Origin: Planctomycetales bacterium
GTDB taxonomy: Bacteria > Planctomycetota > Planctomycetia > Pirellulales > Pirellulaceae
Assembly (NCBI GenBank): GCA_020427005.1
Contig: JAGQOY010000015.1
Location: 1 to 64,000, forward strand
Length of the DNA stretch: 64,000 nucleotides
Reading direction: 5' to 3'
Shown here piece after piece: positions 3,660-45,770 of this stretch. Position 1 is the stretch's first letter, and each line of letters starts with the position of its first letter. The translations under genes and the position numbers were made by a program. The notes under the pieces are model-generated. The model did no database searches. It saw only the letters and a list, made by a program, of their open reading frames with translations, and had not been told where the DNA came from.

Positions 3660-3865
3660 AGGGCTCTCAAATAGGTATGTTATTCATTTACGTGGGATGA
3701 CTTGCCGACAAGTCAACGCGGTCTGAGACGATTCGCTCGTTCCCAATTCGGCAGAGTACTCTTCGCTCGCGGACACCCCTTTTTCAAAATTCAATGGTTG
3801 GCCATGGGCATTTTGAAAAACTGGCTGAGCAAATAAGCTTAAAAACGAACCACTACTCGCGGAAC

Positions 3866-4051
3866 TTACGAATCCTTGTTGTCGTTTTCGAGATTTTCAG
3901 TTCCACTTCCAACCGGCTCGCGCATCCCTGCTTTGAACTCGTTGGCACTGCGCCCAAGATTTCGCATTAAGCTGGGCAGTCGGGAGCTTCCAAAGACGAG
4001 CAACACCACGACCATGAAAATGAGGAGCTCTTGCATTCCAAGTCCGAACAT
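3866..4051 (-). CDS. tatA: Sec-independent translocase protein TatA
   Basis: A 61-residue TatA/E-type subunit. Residues 6-20 (QELLIFMVVVLLVFG) form the membrane helix, followed by the hinge FGSSRLP, a short amphipathic helix (SLMRNLGRSANEFKAGMRE) and a polar acidic tail. The length matches small TatA/TatE proteins. It is transcribed toward the second, longer tatA-type gene, so the two may be cotranscribed despite the 206-base gap. The ribosome binding site is weak (gaagtgaag upstream of the ATG). This is the more canonical TatA of the two. Confidence 0.88.
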   Translation of the reverse strand: MFGLGMQELLIFMVVVLLVFGSSRLPSLMRNLGRSANEFKAGMREPVGSGTENLENDNKDS

Positions 4052-4470
4052 CGCAATTCTTCACTTCAAAAAGGCGATTAACATGATCTGCCGCAACTAT
4101 GTGCAAAGCAAGAAATCACGCCCCAAAGAAGCGGCGAAAGCGGGCTCGTCACCTTCACCACAAAGGTACGGCCAGAACCACTTTTTGAGAGTTCAAGAAG
4201 ATATCACCTATTTTAAGATAGGCCTAGCGAGTGGTCAAACCGTATCTTTTCAAATTTGGATTTTCAAATGGCCGAGCTGGGATTTCCTCGCAAGTGGAAA
4301 TCGATCCACCATGACCTAGAGACTATCGTCTGGCCCGGCAGGCAGGAAGCCCGTCCAATAGGGAGCTACCAGTTTTTGCCGTGTCAATTTTCTCCTACCT
4401 TGCCACTGCGTCCAGAGGAAATGATCGTCTATACTATTTTTGGTCTGAAAAGTAAGGAGCAATTAGGGGA
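4052..4470. other. Intergenic region between tatA and the TA-like pair
   Basis: About 420 bases with no convincing gene. Open frames here have no ribosome binding site and no recognisable composition. The region must hold the divergent promoters for the tat genes and for the small gene at 4471, but I cannot point to clear -35/-10 boxes. Confidence 0.4.
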
Positions 4471-4713
4471 ATGGCGACAGAAGTCGAATTGGAATACGAA
4501 CGGCGTTGGAAATCGATGTCGCACGCGGAAAAGGTTTCTCGCAGCGCGGCCATGTTCGCCTGGACGCGGCAACAAATGGCCATTCGAATTCGTAACGACA
4601 ACCCTAGACTATCGAACGAAGAAATCAAATGGCATGTTGCGCTGAAGCTCTACGAGCGAGATCCGGAAATGGTCAAGCTCATTCAGGAGCAACTCACCAA
4701 TGTTTCGCGTTGA
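4471..4713 (+). CDS. Small antitoxin-like partner of a nucleotidyltransferase
   Basis: An 80-residue, highly charged, helical protein without membrane segments. Its middle (SHAEKVSRSAAMFAWTRQQ, then NPRLSNEEIKWHVALKLYERDP) resembles the short proteins often encoded just upstream of stand-alone nucleotidyltransferases in planctomycetes and cyanobacteria, which share an 'xxAEK... RxxxPxxSExExxxxxALxxY' layout. A gggga ribosome binding site sits just before the ATG at 4471. The stop overlaps the start of the next gene by 14 bases, implying translational coupling. By position and size it would be the antitoxin or adaptor of a toxin-antitoxin-like pair. The function is inferred from context and remembered similarity. 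Confidence 0.6.
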   Translation: MATEVELEYERRWKSMSHAEKVSRSAAMFAWTRQQMAIRIRNDNPRLSNEEIKWHVALKLYERDPEMVKLIQEQLTNVSR

Positions 4714-5272
4714 AGCATTTGAATGGACGATCAGAAAGTTTGTTGCGATTGCAGAGGCGGTGGAACTTCCCTTTCATCTGACCGGCGGCTCGATCAGTTC
4801 GGCATATGGCGAACCACGATTGACCCAAGATATTGACGTCGTCGTGTCGCCAGAAGTCGCCAAGCATCGAATTGATGATTTAGTAGACCTACTGGCATCT
4901 TCCGACTTTCTATTCACCGAAAGTGTCGTTCGGCAAGCGGTTCTAACCGGAGAATTGTTCCAGCTTCTGGACAAGAGTGAGAGTTTGAAACTGGATATCT
5001 ATCCAAGAGAGCTGATACCCGGTGAGCTGCTGCGGTCACAGACTCTAGAGCTGTTTGAGGGATTTTTTCTGCCCGTGGTTTCACGCACGGATGCTGCGAT
5101 CTCGAAACTCATTTGGATCGACAAAGGAAGCCTGCGTAGTCGTCGCGATTTTCGAAGCATTTTCAAAAGCTGTGATGAAAAGCAACAATTAGTTATTCGA
5201 AATCATGCTTCTGGATTGCATTTGAGTGACTTGCTTGACGAAGTCCTCGCGGAATCCGATGAAATCCGTTGA
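4700..5272 (+). CDS. Stand-alone nucleotidyltransferase, AbiEii/DUF6036-like (candidate toxin)
   Basis: A 190-residue protein with the minimal nucleotidyltransferase fold. Residues 29-31 are the GGS of the helix-turn, followed by SAYGEPRLTQ, and the metal-binding carboxylates are D44 and D46 in DIDVVV. A third candidate acidic residue is in LKLDIYPRE near residue 97. The 'GEPRxTQDID' string is typical of the AbiEii/DUF6036-type family, some members of which act as toxins that transfer nucleotides to tRNA or proteins. It starts inside the end of the preceding 80-residue gene (14-base overlap), as in toxin-antitoxin operons. The fold assignment is solid; toxin activity is inference. Confidence 0.75.
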   Translation: MFRVEAFEWTIRKFVAIAEAVELPFHLTGGSISSAYGEPRLTQDIDVVVSPEVAKHRIDDLVDLLASSDFLFTESVVRQAVLTGELFQLLDKSESLKLDIYPRELIPGELLRSQTLELFEGFFLPVVSRTDAAISKLIWIDKGSLRSRRDFRSIFKSCDEKQQLVIRNHASGLHLSDLLDEVLAESDEIR

Positions 5273-6078
5273 TCCCAAATAAGGTTTTGGATAGCTTGCG
5301 TCTTTTGCGGGGAGTGCTTCCACTGAGCTTGCACTAACCTATGTTACCCGTCCATCCCTACCCGAGCGTTTTTCCAGCGACAGACTCGGTGAGGGAAGTA
5401 ACAGATGTGACAGGCCAAAGCGTGACTACCTGACCAATTGGTTGGCAAGAGCAAGAGCCGGTGATCCCGGTTTTTCGTCCCCAAGTGGCCTAAAACCGAA
5501 ACATTCGGTGATGATGGACTTGGCACACCGAATGCTGTCTGGCAAAAAAACCTCCTTCGGGGTGCTGATGGCGCGCGACGGAATTTCGGATCGTGCTACC
5601 ATACGAAACGCTCGACAACGTCAGAGTGGTTAGCAGGATGATTACCGCCGTCATTCTTCCAACAAGTAGATACATGTTCCTGTTCCTCTCCCATTTGAGT
5701 ATTGACCCCAATGTTCGAGATTCGCGCTCCATGCCAGGTTTAGAGCTATAAACGAATCCATTAAATCCCTAATGAGCCTTGGAGAAGAGCAATCTCTGGA
5801 CCATTGACCAAATGCCCAAGGTTTCCTTAGAGAAACGAGTATTCGATCACGATTTTGGCTCTAAAGGATTGGCAGGGTCGAGCATTCTTTGTGCAATCGA
5901 GCATCTTTTGTCTGAGCTCAACAGAACGTACATGTGGTCGTCCGAACCCAGTTGGATAGGCTTGTCGACCAGAATCAGGAGTCCGCGTTTCGCCGCTGGG
6001 TATCCGGTATAAGCTAGTGCTTCGTATGGGGTGTGCATTGTCAGGAATTCCTAAAGTCTACTTCAGAAAGGTGATCAA
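5273..6078. other. Long intergenic region without a convincing gene
   Basis: About 800 bases in which all frames are short and none has recognisable protein similarity. Two minus-strand frames deserve mention only. One spans 5490-5732 and has an internal hydrophobic stretch (AVIILLTTLTLSSVSYGS) that could be a relic signal peptide. The other spans 5847-6038 and is listed separately. The region upstream of 6079 must contain the promoter of the NADH dehydrogenase gene; no clear boxes are visible. Confidence 0.35.
5847..6038 (-). CDS. Possible small protein of unknown function
   Basis: A 63-residue frame divergent from the NADH dehydrogenase gene. It has an aggaa ribosome-binding-like sequence about nine bases before its ATG and a protein-like composition (for example GLLILVDKPIQLGSDD and MYVLLSSDKR). 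I recognise no family, and there are no membrane segments or cysteine motifs. It could equally be a chance frame in an intergenic region. Confidence 0.22.
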   Translation of the reverse strand: MHTPYEALAYTGYPAAKRGLLILVDKPIQLGSDDHMYVLLSSDKRCSIAQRMLDPANPLEPKS

Positions 6079-7398
6079 GTGCCTCGATGTCCCCATGTTG
6101 TGGTAGTAGGAGGAGGGTTCGCGGGATTGCAAGCGGCTCGCTGCCTAAGGCGCGAAAATGTTCGAGTAACTTTGGTAGACAAGCGTAATTACCACCTGTT
6201 TCAACCGCTGTTATACCAGGTTGCCACGGGCGGATTGTCGCCGGCGAACATTGCAGTCCCGCTCCGTAGAATTCTCAATAAACAACGTAACTGCGAAACA
6301 TTGCTGGCCGAGGTCGTTGATTTTGATCTCGACCACAATAGGCTACTTCTTGCAGATGGCGCACTTGAGTATGACTTTTTGGTAGTCGCTGCAGGTGCTT
6401 CGCAGTGTTACTTCGGTAATGAAAAATGGCAGATCCATGCACCTAGCTTAAAAACGCTCGAGGATGCGTCTGTAATTCGGCGCAAGATTTACTTTGCGTT
6501 TGAGGCGGCGGAACGTGAAACGAGCACCGACATGCGAAAATCGTGGCTCACGTTTATCATTGTCGGTGGAGGTCCTACTGGAGTAGAGCTTGCCGGTGCC
6601 ATCGCAGAAATTGCGAGGGAAACACTGCGATATGACTTCCGCCACATTAACCCCTCGGATACTCGCATCCTGGTAGTAGATTCCGAGCCACATATTCTCA
6701 GCATGTATTCCGAACGGTTGGCAATACGAGCAGCGAACAAACTCCAGATGATTGGAGTCGAGATTATGAACTGCTGCCGAGTCTGTGATGTTCAAAATGA
6801 CTCGGTGACCATACGTGACTCAAATGGCCAGACAAGTAGGATTCTTACAAAAAATATATTATGGGCTGCTGGCGTCAGTGCCAATCCGCTGGGACGGAAC
6901 CTTGCGGCAGCCGCAAACGGTGATGTGGATCGAAGCGGTCGGGTCGTTGTGGATGGCTATTTGCGTATGGGATCTGACAATGTCTTTGCGGTTGGCGATA
7001 TGGCTTGCGTTAAGAACCAATCTGGGCATACGCTTCCTGGTTTGGCCCCGGTTGCCATGCAGCAAGGCAAATTTGTTGCAAATGTAATCTGCCGACTCGT
7101 ATCCCATCAAGCATTGCCACCTCCATTCGAATACCGCGATCCGGGATCGATGGCCACAATTGGTCGCGCAGCAGCAGTAGCGGTCATCGGCCACCGAGAA
7201 TTCTATGGTTTTACAGCCTGGTTACTTTGGTTGACGGTCCATCTTTTCGGTATCGTGCTATTTCAGAATCGGATGCAAGTCCTGGCTCAATGGAGTTGGA
7301 ATTACCTGACGTTCAGTCGAAGTGCTCGTCTGATTACCGGGGTTGAGCATCCTCGCATTGGTAATGGGACAGAAGTGCATGACCAAGCTGCTCATTGA
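6079..7398 (+). CDS. ndh: Type II NADH dehydrogenase (NADH:quinone oxidoreductase)
   Basis: A single-subunit, non-proton-pumping respiratory enzyme that oxidises NADH and reduces membrane quinone with FAD. It has 439 residues, usual for NDH-2. The N-terminal FAD-binding Rossmann motif is VVVVGGGFAGLQAAR, and the following FQPLLYQVATGGLSP segment is highly typical of the family. The second dinucleotide site is IVGGGPTGVELAGAIAE near residue 160, and the FAD pyrophosphate region is DNVFAVGDMA. The C-terminus has the hydrophobic membrane-binding stretch (TAWLLWLTVHLFGIVLF) and ends in a polar tail. The start is GTG at 6079, with agaaagg just upstream. A degenerate second copy of the 3' end lies 236 bases downstream, and the next complete gene is convergent. 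Confidence 0.93.
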   Translation: MPRCPHVVVVGGGFAGLQAARCLRRENVRVTLVDKRNYHLFQPLLYQVATGGLSPANIAVPLRRILNKQRNCETLLAEVVDFDLDHNRLLLADGALEYDFLVVAAGASQCYFGNEKWQIHAPSLKTLEDASVIRRKIYFAFEAAERETSTDMRKSWLTFIIVGGGPTGVELAGAIAEIARETLRYDFRHINPSDTRILVVDSEPHILSMYSERLAIRAANKLQMIGVEIMNCCRVCDVQNDSVTIRDSNGQTSRILTKNILWAAGVSANPLGRNLAAAANGDVDRSGRVVVDGYLRMGSDNVFAVGDMACVKNQSGHTLPGLAPVAMQQGKFVANVICRLVSHQALPPPFEYRDPGSMATIGRAAAVAVIGHREFYGFTAWLLWLTVHLFGIVLFQNRMQVLAQWSWNYLTFSRSARLITGVEHPRIGNGTEVHDQAAH

Positions 7399-7440
7399 AT
7401 AGCAAATTCACTTGCCTCCCCTCGCTATGCTCGAACATAG

Positions 7441-7494
7441 TTAATGCTTGAATAAGAAGGCTGGGCTATTGATGAGTGCCCATGTCAGGCCTTG
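7441..7494 (-). pseudogene. Remnant of the 3' end of a DUF1553 gene
   Basis: Read on the minus strand, these 54 bases encode QGLTWALINSPAFLFKH and a stop. The functional gene at 7869-7922 ends in QDLTWALINSPAFLFNH and a stop: 15 of 17 residues are identical, while about a quarter of the bases differ. Immediately upstream in this frame (7504-7506) there is a TGA, and no further similarity to the DUF1553 gene is visible, so only the last codons survive. It sits directly after the intact ndh gene in the same convergent arrangement as the functional copies, and I interpret it as one half of a decayed tandem duplication. LxWALxNSxxFLFN is also a general family ending, so an unrelated lost DUF1553 gene is possible. 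Confidence 0.7.
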
Positions 7495-7610
7495 ATCCAA
7501 GATTCACTTCCTGATTTCAAAGACAACCATTAGCCGGCAAAAGTTTGCAAATCTTGCACATGTTTCTCAGCTCGGCTATTCCCTTACTTCTTCCACTTCC
7601 GCGTATAGTA

Positions 7611-7810
7611 CCAATTGCCGGGCAGCTGCGGCGGTGGCAGTCATTGGCCATCGAGAATTCTATGGATTGACGGCCTGGCTCTTGTGGCTACTGGTTCACC
7701 TGTTTGGTATTGTGTTATTCCAAAACAGGACGCAAGTTCTAGCACAATCGAGCTGGAACTATCTGACATTCAGCCGCAGTGCACGTCTGATTACGGGAAT
7801 TGAGCATCCA
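7611..7810 (+). pseudogene. Truncated second copy of the ndh 3' end
   Basis: From 7634 the frame aligns codon for codon with 7177-7353 of ndh. Over 59 codons I count by hand about 32 silent and only 5 replacement differences; the shared core includes IGHREFYG and LTFSRSARLITG. Similarity extends a little upstream (about 7611), where there is a one-codon insertion and a frame slip; the first 350 or so codons of the enzyme, including both nucleotide-binding motifs, are absent. An open frame remains from a GTG at 7634 to a stop at 7879, but there is no ribosome binding site. The product would be only the membrane-binding tail, so I treat it as a pseudogene. The excess of silent differences means the two copies diverged while still under selection. 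Confidence 0.85.
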
Positions 7811-7868
7811 AGCCTTAGCCACAATGCAGAAGAACAGAGTGAACCGGGTTCTAAGAGAGAACCGGATT

Positions 7869-10800
7869 CTAATGGTTAAACAAAAATGCTGGACTGTTAA
7901 TAAGTGCCCACGTTAGGTCTTGCGCTAAGGTGAGCCGCCGATTGGACATTTGTTGTGAGCTTGCCTCAAAGTCATGTCGCAATTGAACTAGGCCCAAGTC
8001 ATCTGGCGTTTCAATACTCAATTGTTTGAGTTTTGTTGACAACTGCGTGAGCTGCACGTCCTCCGCCAAGGGACGCTTGGCATCTGCCACATCTGCTTGC
8101 AATTTAAGCCATTCCTTATCGCTGACTTTAAGGTAGCCCACCAGGGACGCAAAGGCTTCCTCGGTCTGTTGCTTTTCAGGTAACGTCTGCAGGACCGCAA
8201 ATTCTTCAGGCAAACCGATCCCCAATTCTCCTGTATCCGTAGTTGCTGAAAGCCTAAAATGGGCCAATCGGTGAGCTTCCGCGTTATGATACTGGTGAAT
8301 CTGGATGGTAAGTAGGCAATCGCCATCTGTCGACAGAGGCTGTTTGAACTGTAGGTTCAACCAGTGGACGACAGCTCCACGAGGACTTACCGCCCAACCA
8401 CGCTGGTCGCGATTCTGATTGTCAAAGACTTGCTGAGGATCGAATCCATCTTGTGAAAAATCAGCTATCGCCCGCTCAAGTTCGACGCGATGACTTTCTT
8501 TGGAGTTGGCCTGAGAGGCTGCTTCAATTTCAATTTCGGTGATAACGAAATTACCGTTTTTGGACAGTCCGGGGCCGCCGCCTGGAGACCCATCCAAAGG
8601 CAAGGCTTCCAGTCGTAGCCCTGTGATTTCTTTGAGTGAAGTTCTAAAGGTCAAGGTGTAAGTACCTTTGTCGGCATTGCCTGAAGCCACAATGGAGCGG
8701 TCGGGTTGCACAACGAAATCGCACTTGTTAGTTGACTTCAACTTTTCAGGCATCAAGGGATACCATTGAGCTTGTTGTTTGCTGTTGTTCATGAGAAATT
8801 CACGTCCCATGGGAACGCCTTTCACGGCTTGCTCGGCCAGCTTAGTTTCGGCCGCTTGGATCGCCAGTTCACGTTCTTTTGCCAATCGCTCGCGCTCAGG
8901 TGCAATTTCCCGTTTGCGGTCGGCAATCTGAGTTTCAACTAACTTAAGTTCGTTTAACCGTTTGATTTCAAGCTGTTCACGTTCCCCTACCCACCAAGCC
9001 TCACGTTCGGCCAATTGCGTTTTCAATTCCTGGTGATCTAGCGGGATCTGATCGGCTGCATCGACAATTTGAGTTATTTCTGCTTCCGTGGCCTCTCGAT
9101 TTAGGACTCGCAAATAGATATCTCGCACCAACTGAGCATCTGAAGCTTCCTGCCCCGCCAGTTCCGCCAACTCACATTTAGGATCGCTAATTGCCTTACC
9201 CACGGTTGGCCCGCTGACAAGCGCCATGACGGGGCCAAGTTGTAAATCTTGTGATCGCTCACATTCGCAGGCGCTCTCTCGAACCGGCCGGCCAAGATTG
9301 TTCAAGAAACCATCGGGCAATTGAACTGCTACGTCAGGTAAAGCGGCAGCCCGCGTGCCAGGTTCCACGCCAGGAATCTCTGACACCGCTCCGGTGACGT
9401 GATAAACCGCATCATATAATACTTCCGCCGGCAATCGGCGAGCAAGTGCATGCGAATAGTTCAATTGATCGTCTTGATTCCAACGGTTGCTGGCCACGCT
9501 AAGTTGGTAAGTACGAGAATTGCAAATCATTCTCAATACATGTTGAACATCGAAACCACTATCGATGAACTCTGCGGTGAGCCAATCCATTAATTCAGGA
9601 TTGGTAGGTGGATTTCCAGCTCGAATATCGTCGAGCGGCATCATCAATCCCGTTCCAGTCAAGTATCCCCAAATGCGATTGGCCAAACTGCGAGCAAAAT
9701 AGGGATTGTTTCCAGAGGTCATCCAAGCAGCTAACTGTTCTCGTCGGGTGGCGTTTTCTGAGACTTCGAATTGGACATCGAAAGGAAAATGAGGCTCTGC
9801 GATTTTGCCGGTCCGTTGGTGCGTCATTTCACCATCGGGTCGTTCCGCCACAATTTCATAAAGGGGCCGCGCAACTTCGACGGCAGTACCGCCGACTTTT
9901 TTATCGCCACTCTCGGGATCCTTTTGAAGCTCGATGCGAGAAAAATATGCTGCCAAAGCGTAGTACTGATCCTGTGTCCAGCGTTCGAACGGGTGATCAT
10001 GACACTTGTTGCAGTTGAATCTAACTGCCATAAACAAGTGAGTCGTATTCTCCATAATCAGGTCAGGATCCCGCAAAATCTTGTAATAGGAAGCAGCGGG
10101 GTTGGTGCGATTAGATCCATCGGCCGTGATTATCTTCCTCGCAAACTCATCAAAAGGCGTATTGGCCTTGATCTCCGAGCGAATCCAATCGCGAAAAGAT
10201 CTTGCCCCTTCGGTGCCTAAGAATTTCGAGTTAACTTGTAACAAGTCTGCCCATTTGTTCGACCAATGGTCCACGTAATCCTCAGATGCCAGCAACTCAT
10301 CGATCTTCAGTTGGCGTTTTAAGCGGCTCGGCAGCGGATCACTAGTGAATGCATTGATTTCGCTGACTGAAGGGGGTAGGCCTGTCAGATCCAATCGCAC
10401 ACGCCGCAAAAACTCAAAGTCATCACAGACATCCGAAGGAGCAATCTTCATACGTTGCCACTTAGATGCAACCAAATCATCAATGGTGTTGTAAACCGAT
10501 GGCTGCGACCATTCGAACCCGGAACGATCGCCCATTACAGTGACGGTCGCCGCGGCATAGGCTCCCTCATAGCGCACCAGCACCGGAGCTTCTCCTCGAC
10601 GTATCGCCTGGACTCGACCTCCGGGGAAGGCCTTGACGACCTCACTGTTGCCGCTTTCTACGAAAGACTCATGAGTAACATCTCTTTGGCGGCCATCCGG
10701 GTAGTGTGCGATAACTCGGAATTGTTGCCAAGCTAAAGCATTTGACAGGACGGGTTTGGTTGGAAATAGCTCGATCCGAGACACCTTCTGGCTGCTCGTA

Positions 10801-13070
10801 TTCAGTTGAGCCCCCTCCGCAATCCATCGCCGCAATATATCGAAATAGACGCTGTCGGACGACATCAGCACTCCGCCTTCGTGCGGAACTGCACCTACCG
10901 TTTTTTGTAACATCAAACTTGCACCAGGTGCAGCAATATTAAGGCGACGTGCACATAGGTCATCGCTTAATGCACGGATATCTTCAACTGGGTCGTAGCC
11001 ACGTAGAGACAACTTGAATCCATTCTTACCTTTCTGCGCACCATGGCACGTGCCCTGATTACAACCTAGCCGTGAAAGTATGGGATTAACGTCTCGTACA
11101 AAATCAGTGCCAGAATTAACGGTAGTAGCAAAATCAACGCACACCGGAATCTCGGACGATTGGCCTCCAAACGCCACTTGAAGTATCGCATTGCCGCTTC
11201 CTTCCGCCTGAAGCAACCCGGTTGCATTGAGTTGAGCTATGTGTGGTGAACTCATTTCTAATTTGACTAGCCGCGTCAAGTCAAGTTGCTGACCATCGGC
11301 AAAAGTTCCTGTAACCACCAATTGAACGTAGTCGGTTGGAAAGTGCAGATTCACCTGTGTCGGCAAAACATCCAGTCTTGTAAGTGGTGATGCCGATAGT
11401 TGTTCTTGCTCTTGAATTCGGTTGGGTAGATCGACACTAGCAACAGGCAGACCGCTTGCGGGCGCCAGCAATTTAGTACTATCCGAGCCAACATCATTCC
11501 TCACTATGGAACTCTCCATTGGCGTGAATTCTGCTTGGATTCGATTCTGGTCGACATCAATCATCCGGACTCGACCATCGCTACCGCCAACGGCCAGGGC
11601 TCCGGTCGGTGAAAACGCCACCGCGTACAAACTAGTCGGAATATCCATTTCGAGTTTGGCAGGGGATGTTTTACTCTGGTATTCTTCCACTATTTTCTTC
11701 TCGTCATCGCTCCGTTCGGTGACGCGTTTCGCCATAGCAACTTTGACATCCGCCGGGAGCTCCGAATCAAAGTCATAGGGGTAAACTTGTACCCGACTAT
11801 GGCCATCAAGCGTGCCAGCTGAAGCAAACAAAGTGCCTGACATGTTGAGTTCAACGCTGAATATGCGTTGACCACTGCTGGGAAACTGTCGAATTAGATT
11901 GGCATCGTCTCCAATCCTGCGTTCTGTTTCGCGAAAAATGCGGTAGATCTTGGGCGAACCATCTGCCCCCCCCACTAACACTTCGTTACGACTGGGATGC
12001 ATCGCTAAAGAGTTGATGCCTCCCCGCAATGCACCAGGGGTAATCGAGGTCACATTATCGACAAATCGTTCGGTGACTACTTCCGTTAGCTTGACTGTCA
12101 TGTCTCGTCCGGCACTCAACAAATGCGTGCCGTCGGGATTGAACACAACGCTGCGAATCCAATCTTCGTGAGCTCCCTGATGCAATACTTGTTGCCCAGT
12201 CTCTGCATCGATTGCGCGCACCGTATTATCAGTGCAACCAAATGCGACGAGCTTTCCATTGGGCGAAAAACAACCGCCATAAACGCTATCGTAGGATACT
12301 TGGTGACTGATTAGCAATTCACCGCTTGCCACATCCCATATCTGGACTTCGCCGGATCTCCCTGGCACGCCGCCGGTTACGGCGAGTCGGCTCGAATCCG
12401 GCGAAAATGCGACGGACTCAATTCGCTCACTTAGACCAATTAGCCGCTTGGTCACTTGCCAATCCGCGGTCGACATCAACAGAACTTCGTGGATTCCGTT
12501 GACGGCCAGAAACCGACCATCGCGAGAAAACTCAAGGGCCGTTATGACAGCCGGACGCGTGTAGACCGGCGGGTTTTCGGGCGAGAATTTGAGGCCCTCG
12601 CTAACTACATCAATCTCGGCTCCCAATTGAATCCATGCCTCAATCAGTTCGATCTCGGCAGCCGACAGTGCTGGCAGGTTCTTGGGCATAGCCGCTTGAC
12701 CGTCGACAGGTCGGATTTGCCTCAGTAGATGACTCGCCTCAATGTTTCCCCGTACGACGGCGGTATCGCCAGTCTCTCCGGCATCAAAGAGACGTTCCGT
12801 ATCGGTGATAACATAACCGCCCTGAGGCTTGGCCGGCTGATGACAGCCCTGACAGTGCATACGGAAAATGGGTTCAATGTCTCGTTGATAGCTAACTTTC
12901 GGCCCAGATAAAGGCTCCTGCGCCTGGGCTGAAAGCTGGCAACAAATCCAAAGTGTCATACAGCATGGCAGAATTAACCATCGATATGTCATGAGCTTGG
13001 GTTTCAGTATTCTAAAGGTGAGCAATCGACCACGTTTTGTTAGGCGGGGCTTCGTGGTGGTAAGGGGCAC
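7869..13070 (-). CDS. Giant exported cytochrome: PSCyt1 + WD40 propeller + DUF1549 + DUF1553
   Basis: A 1733-residue planctomycete-type exported redox protein. In order: a long basic N-terminus and hydrophobic signal segment (about 28-50, ending SAQAQ); a C-type heme domain with CQGCH at 73-77; WD40-like repeats (about 165-520, with recurring FSPDxxxLAV and VQIWD strings); an Ig-like/Big domain (about 565-650); a CX4CH motif (CNQGTCH, 670-676) followed by HGAxKGKxGFxLSLxGYDP; DUF1549 (about 860-1060) with CNKCHDHPFERW at 1020; and DUF1553. The DUF1553 is split: after the RVLNREATEAE segment there is an insert of about 330 residues (a coiled coil rich in Glu, Lys and Arg, then a beta-rich domain) before the terminal WALINSPAFLFNH. 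The annotated start is a GTG at 13070; the ATG at 12992, which begins MTYRWLILP, is an attractive alternative. The biochemical role of the family is not established. Confidence 0.9.
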   Translation of the reverse strand: MPLTTTKPRLTKRGRLLTFRILKPKLMTYRWLILPCCMTLWICCQLSAQAQEPLSGPKVSYQRDIEPIFRMHCQGCHQPAKPQGGYVITDTERLFDAGETGDTAVVRGNIEASHLLRQIRPVDGQAAMPKNLPALSAAEIELIEAWIQLGAEIDVVSEGLKFSPENPPVYTRPAVITALEFSRDGRFLAVNGIHEVLLMSTADWQVTKRLIGLSERIESVAFSPDSSRLAVTGGVPGRSGEVQIWDVASGELLISHQVSYDSVYGGCFSPNGKLVAFGCTDNTVRAIDAETGQQVLHQGAHEDWIRSVVFNPDGTHLLSAGRDMTVKLTEVVTERFVDNVTSITPGALRGGINSLAMHPSRNEVLVGGADGSPKIYRIFRETERRIGDDANLIRQFPSSGQRIFSVELNMSGTLFASAGTLDGHSRVQVYPYDFDSELPADVKVAMAKRVTERSDDEKKIVEEYQSKTSPAKLEMDIPTSLYAVAFSPTGALAVGGSDGRVRMIDVDQNRIQAEFTPMESSIVRNDVGSDSTKLLAPASGLPVASVDLPNRIQEQEQLSASPLTRLDVLPTQVNLHFPTDYVQLVVTGTFADGQQLDLTRLVKLEMSSPHIAQLNATGLLQAEGSGNAILQVAFGGQSSEIPVCVDFATTVNSGTDFVRDVNPILSRLGCNQGTCHGAQKGKNGFKLSLRGYDPVEDIRALSDDLCARRLNIAAPGASLMLQKTVGAVPHEGGVLMSSDSVYFDILRRWIAEGAQLNTSSQKVSRIELFPTKPVLSNALAWQQFRVIAHYPDGRQRDVTHESFVESGNSEVVKAFPGGRVQAIRRGEAPVLVRYEGAYAAATVTVMGDRSGFEWSQPSVYNTIDDLVASKWQRMKIAPSDVCDDFEFLRRVRLDLTGLPPSVSEINAFTSDPLPSRLKRQLKIDELLASEDYVDHWSNKWADLLQVNSKFLGTEGARSFRDWIRSEIKANTPFDEFARKIITADGSNRTNPAASYYKILRDPDLIMENTTHLFMAVRFNCNKCHDHPFERWTQDQYYALAAYFSRIELQKDPESGDKKVGGTAVEVARPLYEIVAERPDGEMTHQRTGKIAEPHFPFDVQFEVSENATRREQLAAWMTSGNNPYFARSLANRIWGYLTGTGLMMPLDDIRAGNPPTNPELMDWLTAEFIDSGFDVQHVLRMICNSRTYQLSVASNRWNQDDQLNYSHALARRLPAEVLYDAVYHVTGAVSEIPGVEPGTRAAALPDVAVQLPDGFLNNLGRPVRESACECERSQDLQLGPVMALVSGPTVGKAISDPKCELAELAGQEASDAQLVRDIYLRVLNREATEAEITQIVDAADQIPLDHQELKTQLAEREAWWVGEREQLEIKRLNELKLVETQIADRKREIAPERERLAKERELAIQAAETKLAEQAVKGVPMGREFLMNNSKQQAQWYPLMPEKLKSTNKCDFVVQPDRSIVASGNADKGTYTLTFRTSLKEITGLRLEALPLDGSPGGGPGLSKNGNFVITEIEIEAASQANSKESHRVELERAIADFSQDGFDPQQVFDNQNRDQRGWAVSPRGAVVHWLNLQFKQPLSTDGDCLLTIQIHQYHNAEAHRLAHFRLSATTDTGELGIGLPEEFAVLQTLPEKQQTEEAFASLVGYLKVSDKEWLKLQADVADAKRPLAEDVQLTQLSTKLKQLSIETPDDLGLVQLRHDFEASSQQMSNRRLTLAQDLTWALINSPAFLFNH

Positions 13071-18157: not shown

Positions 18158-18287
18158 GCTCTAGTAGGCTGCTGAAAAAGTAACCCGCAGCGTCAGCGAG
18201 GGAAAGTGCCCAGCCCCTCGCTGACGCTTCGGGTTACAAATCGTCCACAAGATTTTGCAAATCTTCAGCAAATCTAATTACGCAGAG
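18158..18287 (-). repeat. Miniature inverted-repeat element, copy 1 (right end eroded)
   Basis: The sequence begins gctctagtaggctgctg and carries a long internal hairpin: gtaacccgcagcgtcagc near 18179-18196 pairs with gctgacgcttcgggttac near 18219-18236. It continues with aatcgtccacaagatt. Almost the same sequence in the opposite orientation occurs at 20131-20268. The right terminal repeat is not clearly preserved here. The element sits directly behind the fliW stop codon (18295) and so separates fliW from csrA. It encodes no protein. Confidence 0.75.
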
Positions 18288-20130: not shown

Positions 20131-20268
20131 GCTCTAGCAGGGTGATGCAAAAGTCGATTTGCAACATCTTGTGGACGATTAGTAACCCGAAGCGTCAGAG
20201 CGTCAGCGAGGGCTGGGCACATTCCCTCGCTGATGCTTCGAGTTACTTTTTCAGCAGCCTGCTAGAGC
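20131..20268 (+). repeat. Miniature inverted-repeat element (MITE-like), copy 2, 138 bases
   Basis: The two ends are inverted copies: gctctagcagggtgatgc at the left and, read in reverse complement, gctctagcaggctgctga at the right. The terminal repeat is at least 11 perfect bases, and 20 or more with mismatches. Inside is a long hairpin (agtaacccgaagcgtcag from 20181 with an imperfect partner ending near 20246), followed by ctttttc. Copy 1 at 18158 matches it in the opposite orientation. It lies between the convergent site-2 protease and PIG-L genes and could also act as their terminator. No coding capacity; mobility would depend on a transposase elsewhere. Confidence 0.82.
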
Positions 20269-45651: not shown

Positions 45652-45770
45652 TTGTGAAATTGGTGAAGCTCGACGCGAATCGGTAGTGCGAGCGACGCAA
45701 AGCGTGTGTTTTAGGGAAATGATCCAACGGACGAAAACGCGCTACTCTTGTATCAAGTTTGCTCTAAAAG

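Follow-up and report, generated by a model that had tools for sequence, protein, structure and literature searches.

Why should the gap between two intact, convergent genes hold pieces of both? The question is raised by a 64,000-nucleotide stretch of DNA (the whole of it is called the window here), on contig C66 of a 7.87 Mb assembly in 527 contigs, in which an intact ndh faces an intact DUF1553 gene and remnants of both genes occupy the interval between them. Judged by its domains, the genome is that of a planctomycete, probably one of the Pirellulaceae. Along the locus, complete ndh is followed by a DUF1553 tip, a filler, an ndh tail and the complete DUF1553 gene. The initial annotation had noticed the two remnants, and blastn of 7399–7868 against the window recovers both.

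Intact genes and the remnants between them

The intact ndh (6079–7398, plus strand) encodes a type II NADH dehydrogenase-like protein of 439 aa, assigned by its Pfam domains and by full-length relatives that reach 59% identity. Pyr_redox_2 is well over the cut-off (5.6e-46), and the C-terminal membrane domain NDH2_C scores slightly below it (2e-05, 25.1 bits versus 27.7); with these two domains the predicted protein has the makeup that defines NDH-2. A scan of genome contigs for ndh returned distant relatives only (≤49%). The opposing gene (7869–13070, minus strand) encodes a 1733-aa protein of PSCyt1-WD40-DUF1549-DUF1553 architecture whose Pfam matches (PSCyt2, 2.6e-46; PSD1, 4.7e-40) place it in the planctomycete DUF1549/DUF1553 family. 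Upstream of ndh, an AbiEii-like nucleotidyltransferase ORF (window 4700–5272) lies in an otherwise gene-poor stretch (3660–6078).

The ndh tail lies on the plus strand at about 7610–7834. Its blastn alignment pairs 7625–7809 with ndh 7168–7352 (78% over 187 bp, E = 4.6e-28), its protein match spans 7622–7834 and, read from the sequence, homology starts at about 7610 with a one-base frameshift near 7613–7618; it is thus slightly longer than the 7634–7810 first assigned to it, for which the count of 59 codons was right. The tail agrees with the intact ndh at 57 of 62 residues (92%) versus at most 66% with the ndh of 33 other loci, and in a family-wide search with a composite query built from both copies the closest match was 71%, full-length matches topping out at 69%. 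The tail is sister to the intact ndh in the same window, not a piece of a distant ndh lineage, the outcome that would have told against a duplicated junction.

The DUF1553 tip (7441–7494, minus strand) comprises 17 codons and a stop and had been read as the 3′ end of a DUF1553 gene, which the alignments corroborate: 7442–7494 matches 7870–7922 at 77% nucleotide identity (E = 0.005), with an alignment score of 46, where the highest of 2000 shuffles reached 29. Its peptide, QGLTWALINSPAFLFKH, aligned to QDLTWALINSPAFLFNH, shares 15 of 17 residues with the product of the window gene, whereas DUF1553 paralogs in the same genome reach at most 59% over the matched stretch. Beyond this genome, most of the top DNA matches fall at the 3′ ends of orthologs of this DUF1553 gene, led by that of G006 (84%) and including those of G005, G012 and G004. 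One G010 paralog tip reaches 76% too, so identity is not strictly diagnostic by DNA alone; taken together, the comparisons place the tip closest to the window gene's own ortholog group. The tip could extend weakly to 7512, with an in-frame TGA, giving a 23-codon comparison, but the changes in it are mostly clustered at the break, and the sequence past 7494 is ambiguous as decayed DUF1553 and may be non-homologous. Two tip changes, D to G and N to K, fall at positions invariant among 11 orthologs and are consistent with a period of relaxed constraint.

Between the remnants lies a filler of about 115 bases (7495–7609, no strand assigned), which found no match in DUF1553, ndh, their upstream regions, the remaining genome or 148 other genomes of the family. 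The comparisons show no trace of decayed DUF1553, ndh or linker sequence in it, and we set those identifications aside as unsupported. The junction between the remnants falls within a stretch that carries filler, not at a clean microhomology. Since both remnants trace to ndh and to the DUF1553 ortholog group of the flanking genes, the scar stems from another copy of this ndh/DUF1553 junction.

Divergence of the copies and age of the truncations

Silent sites are saturated in both remnants, and replacements are few. The tail differs from the intact ndh with pS 0.797 and pN 0.057 (dN about 0.06), and the hand counts first made over its 59 codons, 32 silent and 5 replacement, proved exact on recount; the tip differs from its intact counterpart with pS 0.94. 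This pattern in both genes upholds the earlier proposal that both copies were long under selection, and it implies that the distance between the two junctions is large and much alike for both genes. For comparison, functional ndh pairs whose tails are 87–89% identical in amino acids have pS of 0.57–0.74, are only 67–74% identical across the whole protein and come mostly from different genera; judged against these pairs, the remnant divergence is as great as that between ndh of different genera. What the silent and replacement counts between remnant and intact copy record is the divergence that preceded truncation, and this may have accumulated in more than one genome.

The tail shows no excess of replacements, its pN lying at the low end of functional ndh pairs, which suggests that it was cut off late relative to the divergence or that constraint persists. 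The latter would be expected had the tail been kept as a selected small membrane protein (81 aa from a GTG at 7634), formed by capture of the membrane tail of NDH-2; selection on such a peptide would account for the lack of replacements, and the frame is open over 7634–7879, its stop at 7877–7879 and its end overlapping the DUF1553 stop by 11 bases. We give this reading very little credence: the frame has no in-frame ATG and no promoter-like site upstream on the plus strand, recent truncation accounts for the conservation, and the one further isolated ndh tail detected, that of G010, is a recent repeat of the ndh end in its own genome. No evidence was found for a function of either remnant, and they probably do nothing. 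Whether the two truncations differ in age is beyond the reach of such small samples, Fisher's test giving p = 0.04 when the ambiguous 23 codons of the tip are used and p = 1.0 on the firm 17.

Gene neighborhoods in related genomes

The two genes are distributed differently among relatives. Orthologs of the DUF1553 gene are present in 14 of 14 congeners at 58–64% identity (that of G001 is split over two contigs), while ndh is absent or distant in some congeners and, where present, is spread over several separate clades; as far as these genomes reveal, ndh is patchy and polyphyletic in the genus and the DUF1553 gene universal. No ndh was found beside the ortholog in 12 congeneric DUF1553 loci, several of which end at contig borders, nor did any of 20 ndh loci from relatives have a close relative of the window's DUF1553 gene next to ndh. 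An intact tandem two-copy arrangement, as the initial annotation envisaged, was likewise absent from every relative's ndh locus and every congener's DUF1553 locus examined. Given the patchy occurrence of ndh and the universal DUF1553 gene, the suggestion in that annotation that the two genes were kept, or transferred, as a unit does not hold in general. The neighbors of the 1733-aa protein vary among congeners although its ortholog is universal, which suggests a core role for this protein.

G010 offers two observations of its own. A second ndh copy in that genome (L148, contig C14) is 61% identical to the first and frameshifted near codon 50, showing that diverged ndh copies can come together in one genome and decay. 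Separately, the 3′ end of its own ndh recurs about 10 kb downstream as a 355-bp direct repeat with 99% identity (L147, 9039–9392 and 19106–19460), and the repeat pair encloses a DDE transposase and ORFs that by eye resemble Rhs repeats but have no Pfam match. The repeat raised the idea of a site-specific element integrating at the ndh 3′ end, which we rejected: the repeat begins at a different codon from the tail, the G010 interval has a DDE transposase and no recombinase was recognized among the ORFs tested, and such an element leaves the DUF1553 tip unexplained.

Origin of the scar

Two histories would place the remnants as they are found. In the first, which takes up the tandem duplication of the initial annotation, an ancient duplication in a single lineage left both copies of each gene long under selection until the DUF1553 body of the first block and the ndh body of the second were lost, in one deletion or in two successive steps. 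The order and orientation are exactly those predicted (A, b′, a′, B, each copy sister to the flanking gene), silent-site saturation is equal in the two genes and replacements are few in both, and the two tip changes at invariant positions would accord with decay after loss. A single deletion from the first DUF1553 gene into the second ndh suffices, so "reciprocal" losses are unnecessary. What stood of the proposal is the ancestry of the two fragments, each from the gene lineage expected, with the right order and long selection; the order does not by itself establish tandem co-residence followed by reciprocal decay, as a single deletion inside a tandem repeat or one-sided recombination with a diverged relative's block yields it too. 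Two tandem blocks, or even adjacency of the two genes, occur in no relative examined, the expected linker leaves no trace in the filler, and large direct repeats would have had to survive until saturation. Direct repeats of such size usually collapse by homologous recombination. We regard this history as possible, though on the doubtful side.

We favor, at about even confidence, the reading that the interval is a recombination scar between junctions that diverged in separate lineages and met by DNA uptake. Convergent ndh–DUF1553 junctions would have diverged in two separate but related lineages and been brought together by uptake; one side would have recombined within homologous sequence while the other formed an illegitimate join within genes of the partner, either directly or through a short-lived tandem merodiploid followed by one deletion, to give the observed order of remnants and filler between the two complete genes. 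The remnants, with their ancestry and divergence, are observed; we infer an origin of the copies in different genomes and one join behind the scar. A single exchange with a diverged relative explains the order equally well, without two copies of each gene persisting, and it is favored because large direct repeats are unlikely to last side by side to the silent saturation seen in both fragments and because ndh appears to be exchanged within the genus, its patchy, polyphyletic distribution making replacement by relatives' genes plausible. The late truncation of the tail and the two diverged ndh genes of G010 also speak for it. Against it, the relatives examined yielded neither a donor nor a sister genome in which ndh adjoins the DUF1553 gene, and the 115-base filler is unexpected from a simple join; it is neatly explained by neither history. 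Composition on either side of the scar is that of the rest of the genome, with no foreign signature, and tetranucleotide usage is uniform across it and clearly unlike that of congeners, so any donor would have been compositionally close.

The same order would also result if an assembly as fragmented as this one had joined reads from two related, co-occurring species that both have ndh facing DUF1553. We think this improbable: the copies differ by 22% in DNA and are separated by unique filler, leaving no shared stretch for a mis-join, and the composition, uniform and unlike that of congeners, makes a known congener an unlikely partner in such a chimera, if not a close sister. Even less probable is a chance arrival of the two pieces in unrelated events, the tip coming from an unrelated DUF1553 gene; the tip is just 17 codons long, DUF1553 paralogs are numerous in the genome and the G010 paralog tip reaches 76% in DNA, but the protein-level agreement with the ortholog group far exceeds that with own-genome paralogs, and order and orientation fit a duplicated junction.

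Recombination on one side with illegitimate joining on the other is documented as homology-facilitated illegitimate recombination (HFIR), which couples insertion with deletion (PMC3240628), and has been proposed for gene-remnant arrays in Vibrio (PMC5361080). HFIR products likewise contain partial copies of resident genes, but the mechanism is rare where measured (PMC3240628); here the event is deduced from one genome, and the join carries filler. In the T6SS arrays of V. cholerae, incoming modules push the old gene's 3′ end downstream as a remnant and leave orphan immunity genes (PMC5361080); a displaced 3′ end is common to both cases, whereas our locus has no toxin–immunity module and both flanking genes leave remnants. 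DNA uptake can also produce partial chromosomal duplications, as described for transformation-derived merodiploids (PMC3784515), and such a duplication could later collapse into a scar of this kind, although no intact duplication is present here. The scar is real but fairly ordinary, a product of duplication or of recombination with a relative and not a new kind of system. It offers a clear example of neighborhood turnover in large planctomycete-like genomes, in which copies of a junction already saturated at silent sites replaced one another or collapsed into one.

Elsewhere in the window, a palindromic interspersed repeat of about 103 bp occurs at 18158–18263 and 20156–20268 and in part at 45695–45766. 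It had no match in Rfam; about 40 places in the genome were scored, from 187 first-look candidates, and its predicted hairpin is very stable (−50 kcal/mol, z = −6.6).
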